From positions 1-64,000 of the forward strand of contig NZ_SCHP01000005.1 of NCBI RefSeq assembly GCF_013607485.1: 64,000 bases of DNA, read 5' to 3'. Source of the stretch: Bombilactobacillus bombi (GTDB taxonomy: Bacteria; Bacillota; Bacilli; Lactobacillales; Lactobacillaceae). The notes beneath the pieces are model-generated. The model saw only the letters and a list, made by a program, of their open reading frames with translations, made no database searches and was not told the origin of the DNA. A program made the translations under genes and the position numbers. Below are positions 52,488-56,083 of this stretch, piece after piece. Within the stretch, counting starts at the first letter, position 1. Every line of letters starts with the position of its first letter.

Positions 52488-53837
52488 TTATTCATCTTGC
52501 AAATTGACTTTATTTCTCATTATTTGTGGCTGCCAATTCAAGACAAGATTTAAAATGATTGCTGCTAAAGCTGCAATCGTAATCGGGGACTTTAAAAAGT
52601 ATTGCAAAAATTGTGGTGCCTGATTAATAATCTTGGCTGGTATCAATACCAAAGCAAAAGTTAAGACCATAGGAATACCAATAATATAAATTTGATTACC
52701 ATCAGCTTTCGGAATAGATTTAAGGCCATTAAGCATGATAATAATACATATAATTGAAAAAATACCACCAATTACCGCACTTGGTATCGCTGCTAAAAAG
52801 GCGGATAATTTACCAACAAATCCTAATATAATAAACCAAAATCCTACTGCTAAAAACACTTTCCGACTTGCAACACCAGTAATCGACACTACACCTGCAT
52901 TGGTAGAATAACCCGTCATCGGTGTACTTCCTAATAAAGCGGCGATTAAACAGCTAAGTCCTTCACCGATAAGTCCACGATCCCATTGCTTTTTAGTAAT
53001 TTTTGATGCTGTAACACTGCTCATAGCAAACCACGTACCCATTGTTTCAGTAGTTAACACAATGTAAATAATAACAAAAGTTAAGATGGCACTTGCTGAA
53101 AAATTAATACCATAATGTAAAATTGTAAAATGTGGCCAAGAAAACCACGCTGCATTTTGAATACTCTTCCAACTAAACAAGTGCATACTAGCAGCAGTTA
53201 AGGTTCCGACAAACATGGCAATGACAATCGAGCTTGCTTTTAAAAACTTTTGCAAACGTGCAAAATAATTACTCAATATGATTACTAATAGAAGAGCGAA
53301 CATGGTAATTCCAGCTAAAATCATATTTTGATTCACATTGCCTGAAGCTTGAAATATATTATCGTTGAGTGCTGAAGGCAATAATGAAAGTCCTACACAA
53401 GCAATAATAGTGCCGCCAACGATAGGTGGAACTAATTTATTAACAATTTTTTGATAGATTCCACTAACTCCCAAAGCCACTAATAATAATGCTCCGACAA
53501 CACAAGCTCCAATTACTGTCGCCATTCCTCCATGAGCGCCGCCATTAGCTAAATAAACGCCCACTACTGCTCCCACAGGTACATACGATGGTCCTTGTGA
53601 CATCGGCATTTTCATCAACAAGCCTGTTTGAATTAAAGTCCCTATTCCACAGGCCAGAAATGCCACCTGCAAAAATCCTGTTTTTTGGACGGTTCCCATT
53701 GATAATAATCCAGCAATAATTAAAGGCGGAACGTACACATCCATCGCTAAAACATGTTGTAAACCTAATAAACCTGATTCTAAAAGTGGCAAATTGTCTT
53801 CGGGACCATAAATCAAATCATTATTTGTGGTTTTCAC
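52488..53837 (-). CDS. Xanthine/uracil (NCS2) permease
   Basis: 449 residues, about 12-14 membrane helices. NCS2 features: GLQHVLAMDVYVPPLIIAGL, SQGPSYVPVGAVVG, GEGLSCLIAALLGSTPMTGYSTNAGVVSITGVASR. It imports purine bases, probably xanthine or guanine, with protons. The start is a GTG at 53837 with GGAG upstream. It overlaps the guanine deaminase stop by 17 bases, so the two are co-translated, linking uptake with guanine breakdown. Confidence 0.9.
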   Translation of the reverse strand: MKTTNNDLIYGPEDNLPLLESGLLGLQHVLAMDVYVPPLIIAGLLSMGTVQKTGFLQVAFLACGIGTLIQTGLLMKMPMSQGPSYVPVGAVVGVYLANGGAHGGMATVIGACVVGALLLVALGVSGIYQKIVNKLVPPIVGGTIIACVGLSLLPSALNDNIFQASGNVNQNMILAGITMFALLLVIILSNYFARLQKFLKASSIVIAMFVGTLTAASMHLFSWKSIQNAAWFSWPHFTILHYGINFSASAILTFVIIYIVLTTETMGTWFAMSSVTASKITKKQWDRGLIGEGLSCLIAALLGSTPMTGYSTNAGVVSITGVASRKVFLAVGFWFIILGFVGKLSAFLAAIPSAVIGGIFSIICIIIMLNGLKSIPKADGNQIYIIGIPMVLTFALVLIPAKIINQAPQFLQYFLKSPITIAALAAIILNLVLNWQPQIMRNKVNLQDE

Positions 53838-55188
53838 AATATTTCTCCTTACCTATAACAATTTTTCCTTGGACTAATACTTGATCAATATTTGCTTTAT
53901 CCGTTTGATACAGCAATTTTTCAAAGCGTAATTGTGGTGTTTCCGTTTGAAAAGTTTTCCAATTTTGATGTACAATCTGCAAATCTGCATAACAACCAGC
54001 TTTAATCTGGCCAGTAGGCACGTGTAAACTCAAGGCTCCACCAATTGTTGCCATGTAAAAAGCATTTTGCATTGTCAGCATAGGTGCTTTTGTACCTCGA
54101 GTTTGTGGATCTAATTGCGCATCTACCCCTTCATAACGCTGATGAGAGGAAATAATAGCTTGACGAATATTTTGATAAATACTAGGACTGAATCCTCCCG
54201 AAATATCAGTTCCTAAACCAATTTTATTATTTCTTTCTAAAATCTGTTTCGCGGGTAAAATCGCATTACCAAAGTAAACATTTGAAATAGGGCAATGGGC
54301 TAGGCTGACTTCTTGACGGTGAAACAAGTCTAAATCTGCTTCATTTAATAACGTTCCATGTGCCATTACTGCTTTATCAGTTAACAAACCAAAATGATCT
54401 AAAACAGCCGCATCTCGTTGATGGTATTGCTGAAGAGCGTACCCATTTTCCCAATCACTTTCACTACAATGTGACTGGATAGGTAAGTTATATTGTCTGG
54501 CCAACCGCCCTAATCCTGCCAAAGCCTCAGAAGTACAACTTGGTAAAAAGCGAGGTGTAATTACTGGAGTAACAGCAATACGCGCTTTTTTATTTAATTC
54601 ATATACACTATTAATAAAAGTTTTGGTATCTGTTAATGCTTGAGCCGCAGATTCATCTCGATAATTAGCAGGTGTTTGCTGAGGGTTATCCATCACAACT
54701 TTACCAACAAAGCCTCGCTGTTGGTATTTCAGACAAGCTTTAACCAGTTCTAAATTACCAGCATTGTGAACTGAACCAAAATAAAGTGCTGTAGTGGTCC
54801 CCTGAGCTAGCAATTCCTGTACTAGGTCCTCATAGACTTTTTTAGCAAAATCCGAACTTTGAAATTTACTTTCTAAAGGGAACGTATAAACATTTAACCA
54901 ATCTTCTAAAGGAAGATCTAAAGCTACCCCAGCATTAGGCCACTGAGGCGCATGAATATGCAGGTCAATAAATCCTGGCAGTAAGAGCTGATCATTAGAT
55001 AGCTGCATTAAGTAATCAGCCTTATTGGCTGCAGTTTTAATTGCTTCATAGTCAGAATTTGACGGCTGAACAATTTGTGCAATATAGCCTTGATGATCAA
55101 TACAAAGTAAAACATTTTCTTGATATTCAACCTCATCAGGACTTACAGATGTGAAATAATTCCCTTGGATAACAGTTGCAAATTCGAT
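53821..55188 (-). CDS. guaD: Guanine deaminase with a non-AUG start
   Basis: 455 residues from the proposed AUC at 55188. Zinc amidohydrolase that converts guanine to xanthine plus ammonia. Motifs: GFIDLHIHAPQWPNAG (HxH), PIQSHCSESDWE, MAHGTLL, LAHCPISN and GTDISGGFS. The first ATG (55008) would remove the N-terminal beta-domain. The in-frame sequence upstream (EFATVIQGNYFTSV, then ENVLLCIDHQGYIAQIV) is what guanine deaminases have there. AAAGGAGG lies 7 bases before ATC (55186-55188) or 4 before ATA (55189-55191), and no ATG, GTG or TTG is available back to the TAG at 55213-55215. Confidence 0.85.
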   Translation of the reverse strand: MEFATVIQGNYFTSVSPDEVEYQENVLLCIDHQGYIAQIVQPSNSDYEAIKTAANKADYLMQLSNDQLLLPGFIDLHIHAPQWPNAGVALDLPLEDWLNVYTFPLESKFQSSDFAKKVYEDLVQELLAQGTTTALYFGSVHNAGNLELVKACLKYQQRGFVGKVVMDNPQQTPANYRDESAAQALTDTKTFINSVYELNKKARIAVTPVITPRFLPSCTSEALAGLGRLARQYNLPIQSHCSESDWENGYALQQYHQRDAAVLDHFGLLTDKAVMAHGTLLNEADLDLFHRQEVSLAHCPISNVYFGNAILPAKQILERNNKIGLGTDISGGFSPSIYQNIRQAIISSHQRYEGVDAQLDPQTRGTKAPMLTMQNAFYMATIGGALSLHVPTGQIKAGCYADLQIVHQNWKTFQTETPQLRFEKLLYQTDKANIDQVLVQGKIVIGKEKYCENHK

Positions 55189-55206
55189 TATTCTTCCTCC
55201 TTTTTT

Positions 55207-55244
55207 AGCGAACTATATTTATAATAATTTATTTTATGTTCGTG
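55207..55244. promoter_or_regulatory. Pair of CGAAC boxes upstream of guaD (PurR-like)
   Basis: GCGAACTATA (plus strand, from 55208) and CACGAACATA (minus strand, 55235-55244) face each other about 24 bases apart, near an AT-rich stretch that may hold the -10. They match the bmpA upstream box in core and flank. A purine-repressor/activator role is possible but the spacing differs from the Bacillus PurBox. Confidence 0.35.
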
Positions 55245-55387: not shown

Positions 55388-56083
55388 ATGATACTAGAAC
55401 GTAATAATCTGTTTAATGTCACACAACTGGAATCTCAATTAAAAGACTCACCCTTACAAGCTCAAATCCAAGATTTAAAGCAACTAACCTACCTCTATAT
55501 GCTGCGACGGGCAGCTATTAAGGAGATTGGCACCAAATTAGAAAATTTAGATGATGAATTTTCTTTGATTCATCAGCATAATCCTGTTCACCTTATTGAA
55601 GAACGGATTAAAAGTCCTGTCAGTTTATTTGAAAAATTAGAACGCAAAAACTTAGATTTTTCCATTGAAAGTATTAATAAGAATATACTTGATATCGCGG
55701 GTATTCGCGTTATTACTAACTATTTAGATGATATTTTTCAGGTGGAACAAACCTTAATCGATCAAGACGATGTTAAATTACTCAAGCGTAAAGACTATAT
55801 TAACCATCCCAAAGAAAACGGCTATCGCAGTGTCCACATAGTAGTAACTGTGCCGGTCTTCTTAGCCAACAACACTCATAAAGATGTTCCTGTAGAAATA
55901 CAAATTCGCACCATTGGTATGGAAATGTGGTCTAGCCTAGAACATAAATTACGCTATAAGAATTTTCAAAGTAAAGATACCGCTAACCAACATGCCGCTA
56001 AACTAAAAGATTACTCACAAAAGCTTTATGATATTGAAGTTGGTATGCAGCAAATATCTAAAGATATTGAAAAAGGAGAATAA
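55388..56083 (+). CDS. Small alarmone synthetase (GTP pyrophosphokinase, RelP/RelQ type)
   Basis: 231 residues, one RelA_SpoT synthetase domain without hydrolase or regulatory domains. Motifs: EERIKSPVSLFEKL, DIAGIRVITNYLDDIF, KDYINHPKENGYRSVHIVV and EIQIRTIGMEMWSSLEHKLRYK. It makes (p)ppGpp from GTP or GDP with ATP in stress. Monocistronic; TTGGAGG before the ATG. RelP versus RelQ not decided. Confidence 0.92.
   Translation: MILERNNLFNVTQLESQLKDSPLQAQIQDLKQLTYLYMLRRAAIKEIGTKLENLDDEFSLIHQHNPVHLIEERIKSPVSLFEKLERKNLDFSIESINKNILDIAGIRVITNYLDDIFQVEQTLIDQDDVKLLKRKDYINHPKENGYRSVHIVVTVPVFLANNTHKDVPVEIQIRTIGMEMWSSLEHKLRYKNFQSKDTANQHAAKLKDYSQKLYDIEVGMQQISKDIEKGE

Follow-up and report, generated by a model that had tools for sequence, protein, structure and literature searches.

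The window analysed, a 64,000-nucleotide stretch of Bombilactobacillus bombi DNA, carries on its minus strand an operon whose first gene is a guaD-like guanine deaminase CDS (53821..55188), re-annotated here with an ATC start and encoding 455 aa, and whose second gene, overlapping the guaD end, is a xanthine permease-like gene of the PbuX/NCS2 type (52488..53837, minus strand). The permease-like gene gives 2.6e-89 against TIGR03173, below the curated cut-off, and starts at its own GTG with the Shine-Dalgarno (SD) sequence AAGGAGAAATATTGTG; almost all relatives, the outgroup included, likewise have a permease gene following guaD. PurBox pairs are defined as CGAA-N26/27-TTCG, and the guaD leader contains a PurBox-like pair, CGAAC-N24-GTTCG (55209..55242, minus strand), shortly before the SD sequence. 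CGAA-N26/27-TTCG is found in the leaders of all five guaD genes of the genus and in many other guaD leaders; on this motif match the leader has the PurBox of the PurR regulon, a putative binding site. An Rfam search for riboswitches matched neither the window nor any guaD leader tested, and no similarity to plasmid DNA was found. A T-box leader (RF00230, 102 bits) is present near guaD in a Lentilactobacillus locus (L009:2986-3217). In the window, a small alarmone synthetase gene (YjbM/RelQ-like, below the curated cut-off; 55388-56083) is divergent to guaD and shares the intergenic region with it; such a gene was not found beside guaD in the relatives examined.

The guaD product scores 365.5 bits against the guanine deaminase model TIGR02967, just under the curated cut-off of 375.4, and is therefore "guanine-deaminase-like" by the HMM rule alone. 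It aligns with human guanine deaminase (2uz9, E=8e-70) over its length from residue 6, keeps the PGFxDxHxHAxQ motif as PGFIDLHIHAPQ, and has the metal-binding and catalytic residues D75-x-H77-x-H79, H240, H277, and D328, which are invariant in the guaD alignment. These features point to a guaD-like guanine deaminase of the amidohydrolase superfamily, with an activity predicted from the sequence.

The reading frame of guaD is bounded upstream by an in-frame TAG (55213..55215, minus strand), and its first ATG (55006..55008, minus strand), the sole in-frame canonical start below the ATC at 55188, is exactly 60 codons downstream of that codon; the coordinates given in the original prediction for this extended frame were correct. 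The lack of a usable ATG, GTG, or TTG in the 5' span, also claimed there, holds across frames: from position -66 to the ATC no such codon occurs in any frame, and the three canonical starts upstream of -66 open only 4-14 codons, all ending before guaD. An upstream start followed by a frameshift was also considered and is ruled out, since no open frame extends to the gene. The SD sequence AAAGGAGG (55196..55203, minus strand) pairs with CCTCCTTTCT at the 3' end of the 16S rRNA of the same genome; this end reads GGATCACCTCCTTTCT, which makes AAAGGAGG a good SD sequence with the pairing as assumed. Its GGAGG core is located 7 nt before the ATC (55186..55188, minus strand) and 4 nt before an ATA (55189..55191, minus strand), the same spacings that had been noted originally. 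Initiation of guaD at a non-canonical ATH codon, proposed originally as either ATC or ATA, is strongly supported, and the evidence described below selects the ATC.

The 60 codons preceding the first ATG (55009..55188, minus strand) had been expected to encode the N-terminal beta-domain, and the model agrees, with beta-strands at residues 5-16, 19-30, and 35-40 and AlphaFold2 pLDDT values of 91-97 across residues 1-60. In the comparison between the window and B. mellis, codons 3-60 have a dN of 0.28 and a dS of 1.33 (dN/dS ~0.2), so that dN is well below dS. Evolution and fold together indicate, if indirectly, that these residues are translated. A protein beginning at ATG 55008, with the upstream frame untranslated, would use the first canonical start of the frame, but the 60 upstream residues are conserved in sequence and in fold, the strong SD sequence stands at the ATC, and this ATG is missing in relatives; such a start, which would delete the conserved N-terminal strands, was rejected and is very improbable.

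Within Bombilactobacillus, guaD is present in five of seven congeners, the window genome counted, and the other four genes are 51-74% identical to that of the window. The codon aligned to ATC 55188 is ATT or ATC after an SD sequence in all five orthologues: the start region is AAAAAAGGAGGAAGAATA-ATC in the window and GTAGGAGGGATAAGT-ATT, TTGGAGGGATAGAG-ATT, GGGAGGAGATTCGT-ATT, and AAAGGAGTTGAGCTCC-ATC in the others, and the same ATT/ATC column extends to many named relatives. The check for ATG, GTG, or TTG at this codon in relatives therefore brought no refutation within the genus. The ATA preceding the start codon occurs in the window only among the five orthologues, so it is not the conserved start. 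Translation from ATA 55191 is quite unlikely: this codon is in frame, 4 nt from GGAGG, and AUA is used by infC of the same genus, but the spacing is short and congeners have AGT, GAG, CGT, or TCC there, while the ATC column is always ATT or ATC. Because of the spacing of 7 versus 4 nt and the restriction of ATT/ATC in relatives to its column, ATC 55188 is the likely start. A sequencing or assembly error masking a true ATG might be suspected in an assembly of 164 contigs; nevertheless, this codon also reads ATT or ATC in 34 other species and in four independent genomes of the genus, of which one is assembled as a single contig, and the chance of such an error is next to negligible. A guaD-permease operon 76-83% identical to that of the window, with an ATT start, was also seen on a contig of 7 kb (L126) deposited under the name Lactobacillus apis LMG 26964; it is probably a Bombilactobacillus contaminant or the product of a transfer.

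In the family, guaD was found in 79 of 398 genomes, and about 76 start regions could be read and were sorted by eye from tables: 39 have only ATT or ATC at SD distance, 31 have ATG, GTG, or TTG, and 6 are ambiguous owing to a frame break or to an ATG 3 nt from the SD sequence. ATH starts are seen in Bombilactobacillus (5/5), Weissella (three of six main copies), Lentilactobacillus (nine), Secundilactobacillus (three), and the groups coded g5 (two), g24 (one), and g4, a single genus (16 of 16 species), and include those of B. mellis, Weissella bombi, W. hellenica, Lentilactobacillus kefiri, and Secundilactobacillus mixtipabuli; genus and species names were tied to the group codes through identity values and identical start regions. 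The aligned start codon in this set is ATC in 24 genes, ATT in 15, and ATA in none. In g4 the start region reads AAGGAAGTGT-TAG-ATT-ATC-ACC, and the in-frame TAG directly before ATT makes in-frame initiation further upstream impossible; where ATT and ATC stand in tandem, in g4, Weissella, and Lentilactobacillus, either codon may be the start of guaD. The GTG contained in GAGGTGA of Weissella and Lentilactobacillus was rejected as a start, belonging itself to the SD sequence and having no SD sequence of its own. A stronger SD sequence in AUU/AUC than in NTG guaD genes was not evident by the scoring used. In two loci (L062 and L015) single-base homopolymer differences from the closest relatives disrupt the guaD reading frame soon after its start, due either to sequencing error or to real inactivation.

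Elsewhere in the order, outside the family, 39 guaD genes were readable, and every one starts at ATG, GTG, or TTG. The maximum-likelihood tree is that of the gene; some of its branches are long, and transfer between genera is possible. On this tree the start trait changes 8 times, compared with a mean of 23.6 and a minimum of 16 in 2000 permutations of the labels within the family; the AUU/AUC trait has therefore been passed on by descent and was gained or lost several times. Some members of the family have ATG, GTG, or TTG in guaD, and the weak start is thus not indispensable. This adoption of canonical codons in several lineages would suit a neutral relic, an adequate AUU/AUC start kept without selection for weak initiation; however, a single base converts ATT to ATG, yet AUU or AUC persists in 16 of 16 g4 species and in all five of the genus, and the tree has 8 changes rather than about 24, so that neutrality appears rather unlikely.

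The start region of the 16 g4 genes (L037, L041-L043, L046, L047, L050-L052, L054-L056, L058, L059, L064, and L065) shows signs of a further constraint, possibly at the RNA level. In the first 30 codons, codon identity at synonymous pairs is 0.83-0.87, versus 0.53 in the remaining gene; in particular, the start block and codons ~16-21 show no synonymous variation and are predicted to form a hairpin holding the AUU start, and every folding z-score is below zero (-0.1 to -2.9). The predicted hairpin, nearly devoid of covariation, is suggestive. Control by such a structure in some genera, with the unusual codon as a by-product, would explain why the g4 SD/start block and a second one lying ~50 nt downstream do not vary at synonymous sites and are predicted to base-pair with each other, but changes on both sides occur in only 1 of 22 pairs and the Bombilactobacillus start regions are unstructured (z ~0 to +1); this explanation is unlikely.

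The rarity of such starts was assessed in 203 orthologous ORF pairs, drawn from 800 kb of B. mellis sequence and 1.2 Mb from a second congener. Under a strict SD rule, 123 of the 203 pairs have a conserved NTG start with an SD sequence and three emerged with ATH only, namely guaD, an ATP-grasp (carbamoyl-phosphate-synthase-like) gene, and aroA, the last being a false positive whose site is inside the conserved protein body. When the SD rule is omitted, an aligned NTG start is found in 144 of the 203 pairs, and guaD is the sole pair with no NTG near the start in either genome, followed by the ATP-grasp gene. Only these two well-conserved genes lack a conserved NTG start in the scan, most of the pairs without a clear canonical start being low-identity pairs. 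The ATP-grasp gene (G000:C98:86060-87325 in L254) has AAAGGAAYG-TGA, two codons, and then AT(C/T) in all seven Bombilactobacillus genomes (L252-L258), with no NTG near its start in any of them. In addition, infC starts at AUA after GGAGGTGGATACNN in seven of seven genomes of the genus (L244-L250; start region GGAGGTGGATAC..ATAGCT), which places this IF3-discriminated class of start in use in the genus; for rnhC, no match in Bombilactobacillus exceeded the cut-off. The genus thus has at least three genes of the AUA/AUC/AUU start class, guaD, the ATP-grasp gene, and infC.

AUU, AUC, and AUA each match the initiator anticodon at only two of the three positions. Given a locus with no usable canonical start, an SD sequence, a conserved ATT/ATC codon, and a translated N-terminus, the explanation that is highly probable as a whole is that AUC 55188 is reached through the SD sequence, has a low output discriminated by IF3, and is kept by selection in several genera. 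The ribosome would arrive at this codon by means of the strong SD sequence, the initiator tRNA would form a third-position mismatch on AUC or AUU, and many such complexes would presumably be rejected by IF3; the GuaD level would consequently be low and would rise or fall with IF3 activity, an output and a dependence that may be inferred from the discrimination by IF3 against AUU, AUC, and AUA, established for infC (PMC13009471). Selection would maintain the weak guaD start in Bombilactobacillus and in several related genera, probably to limit the amount of guanine deaminase in relation to the permease that follows it in the operon: a weak first start combined with the permease's own GTG and SD sequence would lower the enzyme with respect to the transporter, and the irreversible removal of guanine by the deaminase is a plausible reason for dose control. 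Selection may in this way act on a low dose of the enzyme. A wider scheme, in which infC, guaD, and the ATP-grasp gene would form a regulon set by IF3 activity and tie guanine breakdown to the initiation machinery and the purine/GTP pool, is doubtful and is put forward tentatively.

A weak guaD start in dozens of species suggests an enzyme deliberately kept low or adjustable, and the conservation of the codon across genera makes the finding more interesting than first noted. Lineages with weak starts, set beside sisters at ATG, GTG, or TTG, are a natural experiment on whether start-codon strength is selected for enzyme dose. Moreover, automatic annotation, which admits ATG, GTG, and TTG only, likely truncates or mis-starts guaD in these genera.

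To our knowledge, only a handful of bacterial genes have conserved AUU, AUC, or AUA starts. The literature searched gives such starts for infC, pcnB, ccpN, cvfC1, and rnhC and contains no report of guaD with an unusual start; guaD is a conserved IF3-discriminated start codon in a purine-salvage enzyme, with no prior report in that literature. The gene of IF3 itself, infC, starts at AUU or AUA, is autoregulated in E. coli, and has AUA in S. aureus (PMC13009471); guaD resembles it in having a start with a third-position mismatch behind a strong SD sequence, conserved across relatives, but encodes a purine enzyme and therefore has no direct feedback loop through IF3. In E. coli, an AUU start keeps the enzyme encoded by pcnB low (Binns and Masters 2002, as cited in PMC1780047 and PMC13009471); this too is an enzyme with an AUU start, although unrelated to guanine deaminase and from another phylum. 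In Listeria monocytogenes, non-canonical starts are fixed in 6 of 2265 core genes, and those of infC (ATT) and rnhC (ATC) are confirmed by experiment (PMC13068326). The likeness to guaD consists in fixed non-canonical starts, ATC included, that are rare in the core genome, whereas the genes are different and the start sites are experimental in Listeria and deduced from sequence in guaD. In Staphylococcus, ccpN starts at AUA and cvfC1 at AUU, and conserved AUU/AUA starts of S. aureus reach ~10% of what AUG yields, a level that in one case depended on the medium (PMC13009471). These genes encode a regulator and a small protein rather than a metabolic enzyme, belong to another bacterial family, and are the source of the ~10% value, which is a Staphylococcus measurement; they share with guaD a conserved weak start outside the translation machinery.
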